A DNA stretch of 41,601 nucleotides, from NCBI GenBank assembly GCA_001800605.1, contig MGVS01000052.1:7095-48695 (forward strand), in the 5' to 3' direction. Below the pieces are notes generated by a model. That model saw only the letters and a list, made by a program, of their open reading frames with translations, was not told where the DNA came from and ran no database searches. A program made the position numbers and the translations under genes. Shown here piece after piece: positions 15,032 through 35,891 of this stretch. Source of the stretch: Elusimicrobia bacterium RIFOXYD2_FULL_34_15. Lineage in GTDB: Bacteria > Elusimicrobiota > UBA8919. Positions within the stretch are counted from its first letter, which is position 1, and every line of letters starts with the position of its first letter.

Positions 15032-15093
15032 TTAATTTTTCATTTTTAATCCCGCAACTATCTCGGGACAAGTTTTTAAATTTTGAATTGTTT
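15032..15093. repeat. 62-bp dispersed repeat, copy 1
   Basis: Matches 22092-22153 at 61 of 62 positions. Its centre holds the hairpin TCCCG-CAACTATCT-CGGGA. It ends 12 bases before ATG 15106, so it occupies the leader of a glycosyltransferase gene. The rest of the gap (14894-15031) is AT-rich with no recognisable site. Confidence 0.85.
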
Positions 15094-15105
15094 ATTTTAA
15101 AAAAT

Positions 15106-20509: not shown

Positions 20510-20643
20510 TTGTTAAAAAAAACAATCACTGATTAAAATGATTAAGAACACAGATTACACAGATTAGAGCGTGTCGTTAAATCTGTGTAATCGTCTTTCA
20601 AAATCTGTGTAATCAAGAGCGGGGATGACTTTTTCAACGCTCT
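20507..20643 (-). repeat. Structured dispersed repeat, copy 1 (inverted)
   Basis: Read on the minus strand, this 137-nt copy runs AGAGCGTTGAAAAAG, CCGCTCTTGATTACACAGAT, then a doubled ATCTGTGTAATC section, and ends in a GATTGTT/AACAATC hairpin. It matches copies at 23195 and 35756 in the same order, but its middle is longer. Six-base AT-rich flanks AATATA occur on both sides, which could be chance. On the plus strand the AT hairpin comes straight after the stop codon at 20509, but no T-run follows. Confidence 0.85.
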
Positions 20644-22091: not shown

Positions 22092-22153
22092 TTAATTTTT
22101 CATTTTTAATCCCGCAACTATCTCGGGACAAGTTTTTAAATTTTTAATTGTTT
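22092..22153. repeat. 62-bp dispersed repeat, copy 2
   Basis: One mismatch to 15032-15093, including the TCCCG/CGGGA hairpin. It ends five bases before an AAGGAG ribosome site and 16 bases before ATG 22170. As with copy 1, it sits in the immediate leader of a glycan gene. The DNA between 22025 and 22091 is AT-rich, with ATGCAAAATGCAAAAT-like words. Confidence 0.85.
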
Positions 22154-22169
22154 TTTGCAAGGAGTTAAT

Positions 22170-23195
22170 ATGAAAGCGATGATTTTAATAGGTGGATTTG
22201 GTACCAGGTTGAGACCTTTGACGTGTAACACTCCAAAACCTCTTTTACCGGTTATAAATAAGCCATTTTTACTTTATCAGATAGAACTTATTAAGAAGCA
22301 TGGCATTAAAGATATTATTTTGTGTATGGCTTACTTGCCTTTGGAGTTCAAGAAATTTTTCGGTGACGGTAAAAAATTCGGTGTAAATATATCTTATGCA
22401 ATTGAAAAGATGCCTTTGGGTACCGGTGGGGCATTAAAAAATGCAGAAAAATTCGTTGATTGTCCTGTTTTAGTATTCAATGGAGACGTTTTGACAGATC
22501 TTGATTTAACCGAGCTTATAAAATTTCATAAGCAAAAGAAGTCCAAAGCTACCATAACATTAGTAGAAGTGGCTGATCCTACTAGTTTTGGTTTAGTTGA
22601 AACAAATAAAAATGGCAATATCCTTCAATTTTTGGAAAAACCATCGTTAAGCCAAATTACCTGTAATACAATAAATGCCGGAACTTATATTTTTGAACCT
22701 GAAATTTTAAAGGAAATACCTGAAAATACTGTTTATTCCGTAGAAAGAGGGCTTTTTCCCAATTTATTAAATAAAAAGTTTCCATTTTATGGATTTGTCT
22801 ATTCAGGTTATTGGATAGATATAGGTACTACCGAGAAATATTTTCAGGTTCATCACGATTTAATGAACAAAATGAAAAAAAATATTATAGGCAAAGATTC
22901 TAAATTAAGTAAGACTGTAAAAATAGAAGAAGGAAGATTAGTAATTGGAGATAACTCAACACTTGGTGAATCAACAATAATTGAAGGAAATGTTTGTATT
23001 GGTAACAATGTCGATATAGAAAATAATTGTAGTCTTATAGACTGTATAATTTTAGACGGAACGAAAGTGCAGGAAGGCAGTAAAATAGAAAAATCATTGA
23101 TAGGTAAAAACTGTTTAGTGGAAACGAATTCTATTCTAAGCAGCGGTTGCGCAATAGGCGATAATACTATAATAAGGAGTTACAGCAGATTATAA
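22170..23195 (+). CDS. Mannose-1-phosphate guanylyltransferase-like sugar nucleotidyltransferase
   Basis: A sugar-1-phosphate nucleotidyltransferase with the N-terminal signature MILIGGFGTRLRPLTCNTPKPL. VFNGDVLTDLDL provides the metal-binding Asp, and NAGTYIFEPEIL and YSGYWIDIGTTEKYF are family blocks. From about residue 245 a left-handed beta-helix tail begins (hexapeptide-like IIGKDS..IGDNS.., IEGNVCIGNNV). The arrangement is like eukaryotic/archaeal-type GDP-mannose pyrophosphorylase (GMPPB). The track begins at TTG 22155; AAGGAG at 22159 followed five bases later by ATG 22170 fixes the start (341 aa). Followed by a mannose-6-phosphate-isomerase-like cupin and a phosphomannomutase, it most likely makes GDP-mannose; a GlmU/RmlA-like specificity is possible. 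Confidence 0.85.
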   Translation: MKAMILIGGFGTRLRPLTCNTPKPLLPVINKPFLLYQIELIKKHGIKDIILCMAYLPLEFKKFFGDGKKFGVNISYAIEKMPLGTGGALKNAEKFVDCPVLVFNGDVLTDLDLTELIKFHKQKKSKATITLVEVADPTSFGLVETNKNGNILQFLEKPSLSQITCNTINAGTYIFEPEILKEIPENTVYSVERGLFPNLLNKKFPFYGFVYSGYWIDIGTTEKYFQVHHDLMNKMKKNIIGKDSKLSKTVKIEEGRLVIGDNSTLGESTIIEGNVCIGNNVDIENNCSLIDCIILDGTKVQEGSKIEKSLIGKNCLVETNSILSSGCAIGDNTIIRSYSRL

Positions 23196-23341
23196 GAGCG
23201 TTGAAAAAATACTTACCGCTCTTGATTAGACAGATGTTTAAGTCATGCCTTAATCTGTGTAATCTGTGTTTTTAATCGTTTTAATCAGTGATTGTTGGAT
23301 TTTTCAACAATCACATAATAAGGAGCTACAGTAGATTATGA
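23169..23341 (+). repeat. 27-base direct repeats flanking structured repeat copy 2
   Basis: 23169-23195 and 23315-23341 agree at 24 of 27 bases. The left one is the last codons of the nucleotidyltransferase gene. The right one supplies the AAGGAG ribosome site and ATG of the cupin gene. Read in the upstream gene's frame, the right copy would also encode IIRSYSRL and stop, as TGA within ATGA. All three differences are synonymous or stop-for-stop. This points to a former ATGA gene overlap that was split by the element with duplication of the junction. Confidence 0.8.
23195..23314 (+). repeat. Structured dispersed repeat, copy 2
   Basis: A 120-nt copy in direct orientation. It contains AGAGCG...CGCTCT (hairpin 1, with TTGAAAAA in its loop), ACAGAT...ATCTGTGTAATC (middle) and TGATTGTTG-GATTTTT-CAACAATCA (hairpin 3). 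It lies exactly between two near-identical 27-base sequences (23169-23195 and 23315-23341), as expected for an insertion. Confidence 0.88.
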
Positions 23342-26429: not shown

Positions 26430-26443
26430 AGGGAAAAGGGTAT

Positions 26444-26506
26444 CCCGCCACTGAATCATTGGCGGGTCCGCCAAATTCGCCACCTGGCGAATTTGTAGCG
26501 GAAAAG
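26444..26506 (-). repeat. Palindromic CCGCCACTGA/TCAGTGGCGG-type repeat, copy i
   Basis: Located between metK and ahcY. On the minus strand it reads CCGCTACAAATTCGCCA..., then TGGCGGACCCGCCA, then TCAGTGGCGGG. It is the same family as the copies at 28037 and 30003 but carries an extra nested palindrome, AAATTCGCCAGGTGGCGAATTT. The rest of this gap holds degenerate purine repeats (GGAGAAAGGTGGAAAG) and GCACAATCGCACTATCGCACC words. Confidence 0.8.
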
Positions 26507-27985: not shown

Positions 27986-29857
27986 ATGAAAAAAAACAGT
28001 TTATTACTTGTTTCTATTTTAACTTTTATAACTTTTCCGCCACTGATTTTATGGCGGACCCGCCAACGGCTCAGTGGCGGGTTACTTTTCACCCCGTTTA
28101 GAAAATTAACAGAGAGAATAAATAAAATATTTAAACCTGTAGAAAATAAAATATATCATTGTTTTATAGTAATTACATTTTTGTATTTTCTAACGGGGTT
28201 AACTTGCCTCTATTGCGAGTCTTTTAAAATTCTTGGAACTCGACCTTTGGGAATGGGCGGTGCATATGTTGCCATAGGTGAAGATGCTATTACTCAATAT
28301 TGGAATCCAGCCGGTCTTGGTATTGGTTCTGATGTTGATGTACAATTACCTTTTACCGTTCAAGCGGAATTAACAGGTGACATTCTTGGTTCTGCAGATC
28401 GTCTTTCAGAGCTTGCCGAGCAATATTCACAGATATCAACTGCTCAAAAATCAGGAAAAGCAATATCGCTAAGTCAGTTAAGTGCGTTTATTAAGGGTAT
28501 TAAAGAATTAGAAGACCTTAATGACCCCAAAAAAGGAGTACTTATAAATGCAGGTGCAGGTGGAAATATAAGGATAAAGAATTTAGCGTTTTCGGTAAAC
28601 AATTTTACTTCAATTAGCACAGATCCGAGCGTAGATATAAAAAATTTGGGTTTGGGTGCCGGAAGTTTTTCTCCGGAGATGAAACGTGCAATTTATAGAG
28701 CTGAAAGTTACAGCGGAGTGGATTTAGGTGAAATTGTGGATAGTTATAATACTACATATGCAGCAGAACATCCCGGACAGAATATTTTTGATGCTCCTAC
28801 TGACCCTACGCTTCAAACATCAGCAAATACTTTATCAACAGGAATTTTAACAGATATTACAGCAAATCTTACAAACCTTGGAATTGATACGACAATAACT
28901 GCAACTATCCCTCTAGGAATGACAGTCGAACAGGCTCTTGCAAATGCAATTGTAAAAGCCGCCACAGATCCTACAATTGCTGCACAATTAGGTTCTACAG
29001 TTTTAACTCCTGCAGAGGTTGCAGATTATGTTCAGCAGATTGAAGATATTAGGCCATTAGTAGTTAGCATCTTAACAGGTGCTACGTCAGGTTCATCATA
29101 TGCAAAAAACCAGTCTAACTTTACAATTCGCGGAGCATCAACATTTGAAGCATCTTTGGGATATGGCAGAGAGGTTCCGTATGTACAGACAGAAACATTT
29201 CTAAAAGGTATTTTAAAAGGACTTTATGCAGGTATAAATATCAAATATATAAAAGGTTATGTTGCATATCAAAAAATAGAGGTTCTTAGAGATACTGATA
29301 CAGATTTATTGGCAGATTTTAGAAATAATCAGCAAGCTTCCAATTCTTTTGGTTTGGATTTAGGTTTCTTATTGCAAAAAAGGTTTTTTGATAGAAAAAC
29401 TAATTTTGGAATTTTAGTGAGAAATATCAATCAGCCAACATTAGATATGCCGGTAGCTGCTACTAATAACGGAGAAGGTTCAAAATATGAAATTGATCCA
29501 CAGGTAAGGGGTGGAATAGCAGTTTGGCCGTTTAACTGGTGGACAGTATCAACAGACATTGATTTAACAAATAATTTTACAGCACTTCCAAAATATAAAT
29601 CCCGTTTGTGGGGTTTGGGTAACGAATTTAATCTTGTGAATAAGCCATGGCTTAACTTTGCATTGCGTGCCGGTTTAATGAAAAATATGGCAGAATCTAC
29701 ATCAAAACTTGCTTATACAGGCGGTTTTGGAATAAATATTATGCATTTCGTTATCGATGCCGGAGTTGCTATGTCTTCCGATAGGGTTGAAATAAGTGAT
29801 GGCACAAAAGTACCTTCTTCAGCAGCCGGCGCAGTAACAATATCATTCGATTTCTAA
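27986..29857 (+). CDS. PorV/TraF-like outer-membrane beta-barrel protein
   Basis: A predicted outer-membrane barrel of about 620 aa. The block RPLGMGGAYVAIGEDAITQYWNPAGLG is the hallmark of the PorV/UPF0164/TraF_2 group (FadL-like barrels). The region LSELAEQYSQISTAQKSG and the later strands ending in VTISFDF (terminal Phe for BAM recognition) fit that fold. The track starts at TTG 27965; ATG 27986 with GGGGGG upstream is better. The N-terminus is odd: a first hydrophobic stretch (MKKNSLLLVSILTFITF), then about 45 basic residues encoded by a palindromic repeat, then a second signal-peptide-like segment (FIVITFLYFLTGLTCLYC). The second part aligns with the signal peptide of the M6 protease, where a start codon exists. 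Here that start position reads GTAG, so the true signal peptide may have become fused to a leader ORF. Role unknown; PorV relatives assist T9SS. Confidence 0.8.
   Translation: MKKNSLLLVSILTFITFPPLILWRTRQRLSGGLLFTPFRKLTERINKIFKPVENKIYHCFIVITFLYFLTGLTCLYCESFKILGTRPLGMGGAYVAIGEDAITQYWNPAGLGIGSDVDVQLPFTVQAELTGDILGSADRLSELAEQYSQISTAQKSGKAISLSQLSAFIKGIKELEDLNDPKKGVLINAGAGGNIRIKNLAFSVNNFTSISTDPSVDIKNLGLGAGSFSPEMKRAIYRAESYSGVDLGEIVDSYNTTYAAEHPGQNIFDAPTDPTLQTSANTLSTGILTDITANLTNLGIDTTITATIPLGMTVEQALANAIVKAATDPTIAAQLGSTVLTPAEVADYVQQIEDIRPLVVSILTGATSGSSYAKNQSNFTIRGASTFEASLGYGREVPYVQTETFLKGILKGLYAGINIKYIKGYVAYQKIEVLRDTDTDLLADFRNNQQASNSFGLDLGFLLQKRFFDRKTNFGILVRNINQPTLDMPVAATNNGEGSKYEIDPQVRGGIAVWPFNWWTVSTDIDLTNNFTALPKYKSRLWGLGNEFNLVNKPWLNFALRAGLMKNMAESTSKLAYTGGFGINIMHFVIDAGVAMSSDRVEISDGTKVPSSAAGAVTISFDF
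28033..28107 (+). repeat. Palindromic repeat copy ii, inside the 5' end of the PorV-like gene
   Basis: CCGCCACTGA (28037) pairs with TCAGTGGCGG (28071-28080) around an inner TGGCGG-ACC-CGCCA. It is followed by ACCCCGTTTAGAAAATT, whose complement ATTTTCTAACGGGGTT occurs at 28185-28200 within the signal-peptide codons. The repeat is read through in frame here, adding a basic linker to the protein. Confidence 0.8.
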
Positions 29858-29887
29858 CCCAATTTTTTAAAATAGTAAAAATGGGTT
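29856..29887. other. Stem-loop after the PorV-like gene
   Basis: AACCCAATTTTT and AAAAATGGGTT can pair (one bulged base) right after the stop codon. No T-run follows on the plus strand, so it is at best a weak terminator or an mRNA 3'-end stem. Confidence 0.4.
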
Positions 29888-29962
29888 AAAAAAATCTTAC
29901 CATATTAAGAATCCAATCAATATAATATTGCATCATAATATATATAAGAAAGAAAATATTTA

Positions 29963-30106
29963 ATGAAAAAAATAAATGCTTTAATAACTATTATAACTTT
30001 TTCCGCCACTACTTCTATGGCGGACCCGCCAACGGCTCAGTGGCGGGAACTTTTTTATCCCGTTAGAAAATTAAATAATATCATTTATAATCACTTGGAT
30101 ATTTAA
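29963..30106 (+). CDS. Small leader ORF (47 aa) coupled to the M6 protease gene
   Basis: Not in the ORF track. It begins ATG AAA AAA ATA AAT and encodes a short hydrophobic start (MKKINALITIITFSATTSM), then a basic tail produced by the palindromic repeat (ADPPTAQWRELFYPVRKL). Its TAA stop overlaps the ATG of the metalloprotease as TAATG, so reinitiation is possible. The corresponding segment upstream of the PorV-like gene is fused in frame to the gene instead. It could be a real leader peptide, a duplicated signal-peptide fragment interrupted by the repeat, or chance. The arrangement is seen directly; translation is unproven. Confidence 0.35.
   Translation: MKKINALITIITFSATTSMADPPTAQWRELFYPVRKLNNIIYNHLDI
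29999..30072 (+). repeat. Palindromic repeat copy iii, upstream of the M6 protease gene
   Basis: CCGCCACT (30003) pairs with AGTGGCGG (30039-30046), with TGGCGGACCCGCCA inside. CCCGTTAGAAAAT (30059-30071) is the perfect inverse of ATTTTCTAACGGG (30149-30161) in the protease signal-peptide codons. The start codon at 30106 therefore lies in a 77-base loop between these arms. It has the same layout as copy ii. Confidence 0.85.
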
Positions 30107-31968
30107 TGAAAAAAAAATATGGTTATTATGTAATTGTAATTTTTATGTATTTTCTAACGGGACTTACCTACCTTCATTCTGTTCCACACATAAATGGCAG
30201 AAACCCTGGTCCCAAAGAATACGTTAGAAGAACAAAACAAATAAAAACAGTTAAAGGTGCGGTTTCAAAAACAATAACCGCAACTGGTGCGCGAAAAATT
30301 GCTATCATAATGGTTAATTTTGCTTCAGCCGGTACAAGTACTTCAGGTAATGAAATAATGTCATCTGACGATATTAGAGGTCTCAATTATAATTTTTCAT
30401 ACTTAAGAAACTTTTATTTAGAAGCATCGTATAGAAAATTAGATATAGAAATAACATTTTTTTTCTCAACAGGTTCTGCATCTTCGCTTAGCGGAAATGA
30501 AACCCCTTTTACATTGTCTACTCCGATGTCGACATACGGGCAGGATACAGATGCCTCGCTTTCTCAACTTATAATGGATTCAATAAATATCTGCGGTCAA
30601 GTAAATTCAATAAACTTTGACGGTGTAATGGTTGTGCACGCCGGATACGGTAATGAATCAACGAGTAATGATGGCGATATATGGGCTGCGTATGTTGGAC
30701 CTTTTGCGAATACATACGGTTTTACCGAAGGTACAAATGTCCCTGTAAAAGAATCCGGTGCAAGTCCTATAGGGGTAACTTGCCATGAATTTGGTCATCA
30801 CATAGGTTTGTTTGATTTATATTCTACGGTTACTAGGGGAGCCACGCAGGTTGGGTTTTGGTCTTTAATGGATTATGGTGTTTGGCAGGGGAGTGTGCAG
30901 GGTTCAAATCCTACACATCCATCCGCCTGGGAAAAAAAATCGTTAGGATGGCTTGAATTTGTTGAAATATCTTCGGGAACACATAATTTAGAAAGTTTTG
31001 CTTTTGAAACAAGTTCAACATCGGTATACAAACTTAAATTAATTGATACCGAATCGGAATATTTCCTTGTTTATCAAACATCTAGAACCGCTTTTTCACC
31101 GGCACCTTCAGGGAACAACGGTATTTTGATATGGCACATTGATGAAGGAATAATTGACGGTACTACCCTTAGCGATAGAATGGCTACCAATTCTTTAAAT
31201 AATTTTTCTCACAGAACAGTTAGTGTAGTTCCGGCGAATGGTATCGATCCTTCGGCAAATTTTGGTGATTTTGGCAATTTGTGGCCTGGTAAAAAAGTAA
31301 TTTTTACAGCTCCGTTATCAAATAAATATAATGGACAAGAGACTATGTTAACAGTTTTTGATATTAATAACCTAATACAATCATCACAATTTAAAGCTTC
31401 TTATAAACCTTTTATACGAGGTTTTGTAAAAGATTCGGCTGGTGTTGGAATAGAAAGTATTAATGTTGCGTTAACCAAAACGAACTTTGTAGATGTTACA
31501 GTAACTGATAAAAACGGTTCGTATGTATTTGCTAATTTAGAAAATGGAATTTATGAAATTAGACCGGTAAATGCTAATCTAGAATTTGTTCCAACGAGCA
31601 AAATAATTTCTATAGTAGATTTGCCGTTAAGCAATAATAATTTTGCAGGAATTGCTGTAAATACTTTTGCAAACCTTACAGAAAAATCAAATAATATAAA
31701 AGCGGTTAATAATCTATTTGTCCCAGGACAAGAACTGTCTACGATATATTATAAGATAGCTAAAGATGGAAATGTTACTATAAAACTTTATACACTTGAC
31801 GGTAAATTTATAAAGACCCTGGTCGATGAATTTACGTCTGCAGGGATAAATTCTATAACTTGGGATGGAAAAAATCTTAAAGATAATGAGGTGGCTTCCG
31901 GGATCTATCTTGTTCATATCGAAGCTCCCGGTTTTAAATCAACAAAAAAAATATGTGTGATAAGATGA
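30106..31968 (+). CDS. Secreted M6-type metalloprotease with FlgD-like C-terminal sorting-type domain
   Basis: A 620-aa exported protease. Residues 1-25 form a signal peptide (YVIVIFMYFLTGLTYLHS). The catalytic domain contains the zinc motif HEFGHHIGLFDLY at 227-239 (HExxHxxGxxD) and the downstream WSLMDYG Met-turn, as in immune inhibitor A-like M6 proteases. EYFLVYQ and GILIWHIDEG are further family blocks. Residues ~435-515 form a carboxypeptidase-regulatory-like beta-sandwich (GFVKDSAGVGIESINVAL...GSYVFANLENGIYEI). Residues ~535-620 are a FlgD-Ig-like domain (VTIKLYTLDGKFIKTL, NSITWDGKNLKDNEVASGIYLV) ending in KKICVIR, which resembles T9SS type A C-terminal domains. With a SprA-family gene nearby it is a candidate T9SS cargo; that is inference. 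It is coupled to a leader ORF by TAATG. Confidence 0.88.
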   Translation: MKKKYGYYVIVIFMYFLTGLTYLHSVPHINGRNPGPKEYVRRTKQIKTVKGAVSKTITATGARKIAIIMVNFASAGTSTSGNEIMSSDDIRGLNYNFSYLRNFYLEASYRKLDIEITFFFSTGSASSLSGNETPFTLSTPMSTYGQDTDASLSQLIMDSINICGQVNSINFDGVMVVHAGYGNESTSNDGDIWAAYVGPFANTYGFTEGTNVPVKESGASPIGVTCHEFGHHIGLFDLYSTVTRGATQVGFWSLMDYGVWQGSVQGSNPTHPSAWEKKSLGWLEFVEISSGTHNLESFAFETSSTSVYKLKLIDTESEYFLVYQTSRTAFSPAPSGNNGILIWHIDEGIIDGTTLSDRMATNSLNNFSHRTVSVVPANGIDPSANFGDFGNLWPGKKVIFTAPLSNKYNGQETMLTVFDINNLIQSSQFKASYKPFIRGFVKDSAGVGIESINVALTKTNFVDVTVTDKNGSYVFANLENGIYEIRPVNANLEFVPTSKIISIVDLPLSNNNFAGIAVNTFANLTEKSNNIKAVNNLFVPGQELSTIYYKIAKDGNVTIKLYTLDGKFIKTLVDEFTSAGINSITWDGKNLKDNEVASGIYLVHIEAPGFKSTKKICVIR

Positions 31969-32030: not shown

Positions 32031-33443
32031 ATGAAAACTATTAAAATGTTTTATAAAATAATTATTATTCTTTCATGTTTATTAACTGGGTTTAATTGCC
32101 TTTATGCTAAGGGTGCCGGAAGCAATTCGGGCGAAAATATATTACAGTCACCGGGAGTAAGACAAATGGGGATAGGCGGCGGTGGAACTGCCGTCAGTGG
32201 CGATATATATTCAATCTATCAGAATCCGGCGGGTATTTCAATTATATCTGAAAAACAGGTGTCATCAGTTTTAGAAAACGGGCTAAGTAATGATTACAAA
32301 GCTTCAATTGTTTTTGGCCATGGTGTTAGTGGACAGAATAAGTATGGAATTGCTTTTGCCGTTTCATATTTTAACGGCGGACCCATGGAAATTAATTATA
32401 TCGACGGTACTTCTAAAAATGTTCTTTCTCAATCAGATTTTCTAGCTATGCTTGGCTGGAGTATGTATACAGCATCAAACATTTCCATGGGGTATAATAT
32501 AAAATATTTATCTTCACAACTTATAGAGAATTATAATTCTTCTGCAGTAGCTTTTGATGCCGGTATTATAGCAGAAAATACAACTAATAAAAGATTAAAG
32601 CTTGGGCTTGCTGCGCAGAATTTTGGAACTTCTTTAAAATATAGAAGTAAAAAGGAAACGCTACCGGCATTGATTAGGGGTGGTCTTTCATACATTATAC
32701 CTATAGATACTAAAAGTTCACTTCTTACTGTAATTGATGGTTTCTATTTGATTGATGAAAGTAATTTTTACAAATCTTTAGGTGCTGAATATTCTATGAG
32801 TGATAGATTTTTTTTAAGGGGTGGTTTGAAAATCTTACCAGATAGACGCAGTTTTACTTTTGGCATGGGTTTAAAATTGTATGAAAAATATAATATTGAT
32901 TTAGCGTCTGAACCCAATTCAATTAATAATATATATAAAGTTTCTTTTACAATGAAGTTTGGGGGTATTGAACATGCAGGGTCTAAAGTGATAGGGCAAA
33001 AGCAGGAGTTATCAAAACTTGAAGAAGAAAAAAAATATGAATATGAAAATATTATGGAAAAAATTGCGGTTGTAGATTTTGAAGGTAAAAGTGTTTCTCA
33101 CACAGATGCATCCATTGTTACGGATTTTCTGAGAACAGAACTTGTCAACATTGGTGCTTTTAATATAATCGAAAAGAATAATATGGATAAAATTTTAGCA
33201 GATGCTTTATTCCAGCAATCAGAGTGCTCAACTTCCGACTGTGCAGTTGTAATTGGCAAAATAGTGAATGTCAAAAAAATATTGATTGGTTCATTGTCGA
33301 AAACGGATGATGCGTATTTTTTAACAGTCAATCTAGTTGAGGTTGACACCGGTAAGGTAATAAAGTCTGAAGATTCTAAAGCATATTCAATCGAAGAATT
33401 CAAAGATATTAGTAAGAGTATAGCTCAGAGAATCAGCCAATAG
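32031..33443 (+). CDS. PorV-like barrel fused to a CsgG-like domain
   Basis: An exported 470-aa protein. The signal peptide (FYKIIIILSCLLTGFNCLYA) is followed by RQMGIGGGGTAVSGDIYSIYQNPAGIS, the PorV/TraF/UPF0164 hallmark. A series of amphipathic strands ends near YKVSFTMKFGG (residue ~312). A charged, coiled-coil-like linker (QKQELSKLEEEKKYEYENIMEK) leads to a CsgG-like domain: IAVVDFEGKSVSHTDASIVTDFLRTELVN, FNIIEKNNMDKILAD, and KILIGSLSKTDDAYFLTVNLVEVDTGKVI. CsgG relatives form or help outer-membrane export pores or act as periplasmic nucleotide-independent assembly factors. The fusion suggests an accessory of an outer-membrane export machine. Its signal-peptide codons resemble those of the two preceding genes. 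Exact function is unknown. Confidence 0.82.
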   Translation: MKTIKMFYKIIIILSCLLTGFNCLYAKGAGSNSGENILQSPGVRQMGIGGGGTAVSGDIYSIYQNPAGISIISEKQVSSVLENGLSNDYKASIVFGHGVSGQNKYGIAFAVSYFNGGPMEINYIDGTSKNVLSQSDFLAMLGWSMYTASNISMGYNIKYLSSQLIENYNSSAVAFDAGIIAENTTNKRLKLGLAAQNFGTSLKYRSKKETLPALIRGGLSYIIPIDTKSSLLTVIDGFYLIDESNFYKSLGAEYSMSDRFFLRGGLKILPDRRSFTFGMGLKLYEKYNIDLASEPNSINNIYKVSFTMKFGGIEHAGSKVIGQKQELSKLEEEKKYEYENIMEKIAVVDFEGKSVSHTDASIVTDFLRTELVNIGAFNIIEKNNMDKILADALFQQSECSTSDCAVVIGKIVNVKKILIGSLSKTDDAYFLTVNLVEVDTGKVIKSEDSKAYSIEEFKDISKSIAQRISQ

Positions 33444-35731: not shown

Positions 35732-35755
35732 AAAAAAAACGGTATTGTTATTATA

Positions 35756-35875
35756 AGAACGTTGAAAAAGTACTAAATCGCTCTTGAGTACACAGATACT
35801 ATCGTCGTGCCTTAATCTGTGTAATCTTGTTTTTAATCGGTGTAATCAGAGATTGTTGTGTTTTTCAACAATCTC
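35756..35875 (+). repeat. Structured dispersed repeat, copy 3
   Basis: A 120-nt copy between divergent lptF and sprA. It runs AGAACGTTGAAAAAG, TCGCTCTTGAG, ACACAGAT, CGTGCCTTAATCTGTGTAATC, and ends in GAGATTGTTG-TGTTTTT-CAACAATCTC. It is closest to copy 2 and equal to it in length. ATTATA flanks both sides. A short ORF predicted across it (35784-35966) is not regarded as real. Confidence 0.87.
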
Positions 35876-35891
35876 ATTATATAAAAAGTCC

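Follow-up and report, generated by a model that had tools for sequence, protein, structure and literature searches.

Palindromic repeats within the codons for the signal peptides of unrelated exported proteins in an Elusimicrobia genome: a probable mobile composite that supplies part of the export signal

Two exported-protein genes with repeat-bearing leaders

The window, a stretch of 41,601 nt from Elusimicrobia bacterium RIFOXYD2_FULL_34_15, carries a type IX secretion-like locus with PorV-family proteins, an M6 protease bearing a T9SS-type sorting domain and an SprA-like protein, the SprA and M6-domain scores lying below curated cut-offs. Adjoining the protease gene, positions 32031-33443 encode a PorV/PorQ-family protein fused to an LpoB/CsgG-like C-terminal domain. 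The leaders of the PorV-like and M6 genes are the subject of this analysis (Table 1). In both, a palindrome (repeat A) is followed by a pair of inverted arms that bound a second repeat (B), just as an earlier reading based on the sequence alone had described.

Table 1. Features of the two leaders and their surroundings (window positions)
Feature	Position	Strand	Remarks
Intergenic copy of repeat A (part)	26443..26473	-	opposite orientation
PorV-like outer-membrane protein gene	27986..29857	+	Pfam TraF_2; NCBIfam PorV/PorQ family below cut-off
PorV-like gene, extended signal-peptide region	27986..28216	+	native start MKKNSLLLVSILTFITF, then A+B insert, then native-type end TCLYC followed by ESF
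Repeat A in PorV leader	28036..28081	+	46-nt palindrome TCCGCCACT..TGGCGGACCCGCC..AGTGGCGGG; in-frame translation FPPLILWRTRQRLSGG
Stretch identical to G001 ortholog	28082..28211	+	130 nt, 43 codons, no change
Repeat B in PorV leader	28092..28198	+	left arm 28092-28106, right arm 28185-28198; right arm read FLTG
Upstream ORF of protease	29963..30106	+	MKKINALITIITFSATTSMADPPTAQWRELFYPVRKLNNIIYNHLDI then stop, 47 codons; stop overlaps protease start (TAATG)
Repeat A in protease leader	30002..30047	+	
Repeat B in protease leader	30059..30161	+	arms 30059-30071 and 30149-30161, 77-nt loop
M6 family metalloprotease gene	30106..31968	+	C-terminal T9SS-type sorting / FlgD_ig domain
Protease signal peptide	30106..30180	+	MKKKYGYYVIVIFMYFLTGLTYLHS; encoded mostly by B
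Signal peptide of next gene (PorV/LpoB-like)	32031..32108	+	MKTIKMFYKIIIILSCLLTGFNCLYA; same kind of end, no A or B

In the PorV leader, the left arm CCCCGTTTAGAAAAT and the right arm ATTTTCTAACGGGG form a stem with a one-base bulge, while in the protease leader the arms CCCGTTAGAAAAT and ATTTTCTAACGGG form a perfect 13-bp stem that closes exactly 77 bases. The earlier reading had placed the start codon inside this loop. That is true of the protease, whose ATG (30106) falls there, but not of PorV, whose likely ATG (27986) precedes palindrome and stem alike, so that the structure is wholly inside the ORF. In the protease leader the reading frame through A and B is broken, leaving an upstream ORF whose stop overlaps the in-loop start. 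This ORF begins like a signal peptide and is probably the old start, together with the first half, of the protease signal peptide. The pattern is not due to chance. The PorV and M6 leaders fold with z-scores of -5.35 and -4.21 against dinucleotide shuffles (0 of 200 shuffles as good in either case), the genome contains 17 copies of the arm ATTTTCTAACGGG but none of its reversed sequence, and the succession of A and B is found at three more gene starts.

Repeat families A and B and their composite

Searches of the genome to which the window belongs (G000; 2.47 Mb), on which our copy counts are based, returned 44 matches to the 46-nt, GC-rich palindrome A. Some of these are one copy read on both strands, so the number of copies is about 40. 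Repeat A is also found in other genera and families of the phylum. Copies of A without B are mostly intergenic, but A alone also lies in frame in the middle of the genes for Lnt, HisH, FolC and LeuS (gene names assigned by reading the proteins). Outside the leaders, the arms of B terminate inverted-repeat elements of about 82 bp (CCCCGTACGAAAATGT...ACATTTTCTAACGGGG) that are of near-constant length and have unrelated interiors. A gapped-pattern genome search for CCCCGT...ACGGGG ends returned ten hits, which represent nine loci 79-83 bp in length; the inspected elements sit between genes or at gene ends, none within gene bodies. Since the arms also end intergenic inverted-repeat elements, they are not by themselves a leader signal. 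The sequence-only reading had expected the arms to keep to gene starts across the genome; arms alone occur away from gene starts as well, whereas the composite of A and B occurs only there.

This composite (A+B, about 165 nt), in which A precedes B at a near-fixed spacing, is present at five places on four contigs, and no full A+B was found elsewhere in the genome. Besides the PorV-like and M6 proteins of the window, its hosts are a FliG-domain protein (C3:18622), a small LysM protein (C9:22019) and an AhpC/TSA-redoxin, thioredoxin-like protein (C23:18854). All five copies lie within the signal-peptide codons of these unrelated exported proteins and are in frame with the mature protein; the corresponding number for inspected A-only copies is 0 of 25 (Fisher p = 7e-6). 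The composites are mutually 62-77% identical, and the right arm of B is read as F-L-T-G in every copy, directly before the cleavage region. Four of the copies (those of PorV, C3, C9 and C23) can be read through A and B without a stop from a start further upstream, and neither PorV nor C9 has an in-frame ATG in the loop.

Judged from hydropathy and sequence alone, each B copy encodes a basic n-region and a hydrophobic stretch ahead of a small-residue cleavage site, and the features of a Sec signal peptide (basic n-region, hydrophobic core, small residue at -1) are present in all the leaders. Because B encodes basic residues and a hydrophobic stretch, insertion would rebuild an export signal beside the native cleavage codons. 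One might instead suppose that A+B encodes a specialised extended signal peptide or a sorting signal for one export route, given that the five unrelated hosts have the peptide K.Y..Y.IIIxMYFLTGLxCLYS in common, that the four read-through leaders are 76-90 residues long with two hydrophobic stretches, and that PorV and M6 are encoded in a type IX secretion-like locus. Such specialisation is hard to credit, however, as the mature proteins are very different (barrel, protease, thioredoxin-like, FliG-domain, LysM) and sister orthologs do the same job with plain signal peptides.

Empty sites in related genomes

Orthologs were taken from a genome of the same genus (G001, a UBA9627 MAG) and from six genomes of the same family (G002-G007). 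PorV has a plain signal peptide in G002, G003 and G004 and the composite in G001. The M6 protease of G001 has the plain signal peptide MKILNTILYTLILNFLLITCLYS followed by VPHING. In the thioredoxin-like protein, MKYKNIFLILTFNFLLFSCLYS directly precedes AD in G001, as against MKYKNIFFIFTF, A+B and YFLTGLTCLFS before AD in G000, and at this site ATGAAATATAAAAATATATTTTTTATTTTTACCTTTT and ACTTACCTGCCTTTTTTCCGCTGA flank A+B in G000 where G001 has ATGAAATATAAGAATATTTTTTTAATTTTAACTTTTAACTTTTTACTTTTTTCTTGCCTTTATTCCGCTGA. The FliG-domain gene is without the composite in G002-G007. The plain signal peptides of the sister-genome orthologs are about 22-36 residues in length. As these orthologs have ordinary signal peptides without A+B, we conclude that the composite was inserted into signal peptides that were already there. 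If gain rather than loss is assumed, the PorV copy was acquired before the split of G000 and G001, whereas the M6 and C23 copies, at the least, are younger than the split.

These comparisons also bear on the limits of the repeated unit. The view that the leader itself is what the two genes share applies to A+B, but not to the flanking signal-peptide ends, which are apparently native to each gene. We considered the codons 3′ of B as part of the cassette and dropped this idea, since repeat-less orthologs have the same xCLYS/A end. Had recombination between genes (gene conversion of their 5′ ends) spread the leaders, rather than transposition of A+B, one could understand why the codons right after B are alike in all copies, why the affected PorV and M6 genes adjoin and why the signal peptide of another gene of the cluster ends in a similar way with neither A nor B. 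We nevertheless think gene conversion very unlikely: the xCLYS/A end is common in the family without any repeat, the five loci are spread over four contigs, and at the M6, thioredoxin-like and PorV sites the native flanks survive on both sides. A LysM protein of G001 (C1:21868) has the signal peptide MLLFFIFMYFLTDFNCLHS, and the DNA encoding it is similar to B's right end but includes neither A nor the left arm; this may be a relic.

Conservation of the B stem and of the PorV copy

Inspection of the five stems showed that the B stem is kept in all copies with changes on both sides. The outer C-G pair is replaced by U-A in M6 and C23, and matched changes are found in the inner part of the stem in C3 and C9. 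The PorV leaders of a single ortholog pair, G000 and G001, are identical over a stretch covering B (Table 1). The PorV proteins of the two genomes are 78% identical, the neighbouring A has several changes, and in the mature part 189 of 423 conserved codons (45%) differ synonymously. The probability of 43 unchanged codons is about 9e-12; the rest of the gene has at most 11 unchanged codons in a row. Passive tolerance explains neither this unchanged copy nor the compensatory changes in the stem. The identity of the PorV leaders may reflect either selection on an RNA or DNA structure or a recent exchange of the leader between the two species.

Control of translation by the leader, which the sequence-only reading had proposed for envelope proteins, deserves consideration here. 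The A hairpin and the B stem might form a cis-acting RNA element, with the encoded peptide being secondary; the strong leader folds, the stem retained through compensatory changes, the unchanged PorV codons and the protease start within the loop all agree with such a role. However, inverted-repeat transposon subfamilies would also give symmetrical stems, and the arms end some ten extragenic elements as well. The loop is without an in-frame ATG in two hosts, PorV and C9, and in PorV the whole structure belongs to the coding region. The host genes have no obvious common regulation, their orthologs manage without the structure, A decays in G001, and no Rfam family matches the PorV or M6 leaders. 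On balance, we regard RNA-based control as unlikely.

An unrelated palindrome in signal peptides of sister genomes

A second palindrome (TCATTGCGAGG... / TCATTGCGAGGCGTAGCC...), unrelated to A and B, has 13 matches in G005 and 37 in G006. It lies in frame in the PorV signal peptide of G005 and, judged by translation, in that of G006. The same palindrome is in frame in the signal peptides of another PorV-type protein (G004) and of a lipoprotein (G007). Simple tandem repeats, such as ACTTACTCACTTACTCACTTACTC, are found in other signal peptides of these genomes.

Discussion

Taken together, the data are probably best explained by small mobile palindromes that accumulate in frame in signal peptides, this segment presumably being discarded, with A+B supplying a basic-plus-hydrophobic core of its own. 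According to this explanation, A and B would be small non-autonomous mobile palindromic repeats that were once joined into A+B. At least five unrelated genes for exported proteins would then have received a copy of the composite among their signal-peptide codons, in each case between the first basic-plus-hydrophobic codons and the codons of the cleavage site, leaving the mature protein untouched. As the signal peptide is presumably cut off, an in-frame insert at this position spares the mature protein. The right half of A+B would contribute basic residues and a hydrophobic core that are new to the host gene (consensus K-x-Y-x-x-Y-hydrophobic-M-Y-F-L-T-G), and an ATG of their own is present in some copies. 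A functional signal peptide could thus be rebuilt from either start, the old one or the ATG inside A+B. Signal peptides would in this way serve both as a tolerated landing site and as a place where the repeats get used. What the sequences show directly is the repeats with their copy numbers, positions and frames and the empty orthologous sites; transposition as the means of spread, and use of the new signal peptides in export with subsequent cleavage, we infer.

The earlier suggestion of a mobile signal-peptide cassette comes close to this evidence, as all five A+B copies reside in signal peptides of unrelated genes whose orthologs lack them. A stronger version would make A+B a true mobile cassette, a non-autonomous element whose coding content (a start of its own, a basic region and a hydrophobic core) lets it persist because only landings in signal peptides are neutral or useful, and whose hairpin, once settled as in PorV, is strongly selected. 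We put this version forward tentatively, as a possibility rather than as our expectation.

What moves the repeats was considered as well. Like REP elements and their Y1 transposases (RAYT), repeat A is a short GC-rich palindrome, mostly intergenic, in a genome with five Y1_Tnp genes. Some copies are followed by CTAC (GTAG on the other strand), but this tag is inconsistent: CTAC directly follows 5 of 25 A-only copies, and near variants (CTAT, TTAC) follow 5 more. The core motifs of A and B are absent from the flanks (about 1.5 kb) of all five Y1_Tnp genes, and we therefore rejected these genes as the movers of A or B. To our knowledge, in-frame insertion in genes is not typical of REP elements. 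The B-type elements resemble MITEs, being dispersed, gene-free, intergenic elements of about 82 bp with inverted ends (CCCCGTACGAAAATG...CATTTTCTAACGGGG) and unrelated interiors. Unlike in MITEs, the search of this one transposase family found no autonomous partner, and no clean target-site duplication is readable at the A and B flanks, which consist of T-rich simple sequence; moreover, B as part of the composite is a coding sequence and, at about 105 bp, exceeds the B-type elements in length.

The repeats are reminiscent of Rickettsia palindromic elements (RPE) and their Wolbachia equivalents, small palindromes that lie in frame in unrelated protein genes, including housekeeping ones (PMC10969869, PMC2229807). 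Both A within Lnt, HisH, FolC and LeuS and A+B within the five signal peptides fit this description. The differences are that here the phylum is another one, A lies mostly between genes, and the composite keeps to signal peptides, of which it seemingly supplies a functional part. A mobile sequence that forms part of a signal peptide has been described in Yersinia, where YPAL/RU-2 does so in YPO1552 (PMC2759123). That case concerns one detailed locus, whereas here there are five loci in one genome, empty sites, and a second family in sister genera. Among the papers searched, we came across no account of such repeats in Elusimicrobia.

What is known of in-frame palindromic repeats comes mostly from Rickettsia and its relatives, in which they have been described across protein genes at large. 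Their occurrence in a different phylum, with empty sites in sister genera and two unrelated families converging on the same segment, suggests that such insertions find a safe harbour in the cleaved signal peptide. It would offer selfish DNA a concrete route into exported proteins and would help to explain the wide variation of signal-peptide length in this family. It is also a warning that annotation may misplace the starts of genes for exported proteins in genomes of this kind.

Other repeats

Several further repeats were observed in the course of the analysis. A 65-nt repeat is present twice in the window (15032-15096 and 22092-22156, 97% identical), and a similar stretch (AATCCC...GGGACAAG) lies on C3 just 5′ of its A copy. 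A repeat-derived stretch (DVIASETKQSRLKLDGHSCENRNP...LDSHLRGND) occupies the same position in a 646-aa reading frame found both in C41 of G001 and in C20 of G000, and the two proteins are identical across the 120 residues compared. An intergenic inverted-repeat family with AATCTGTGTAATC motifs occupies positions 20510-20643, 23195-23320 and 35749-35881 of the window.
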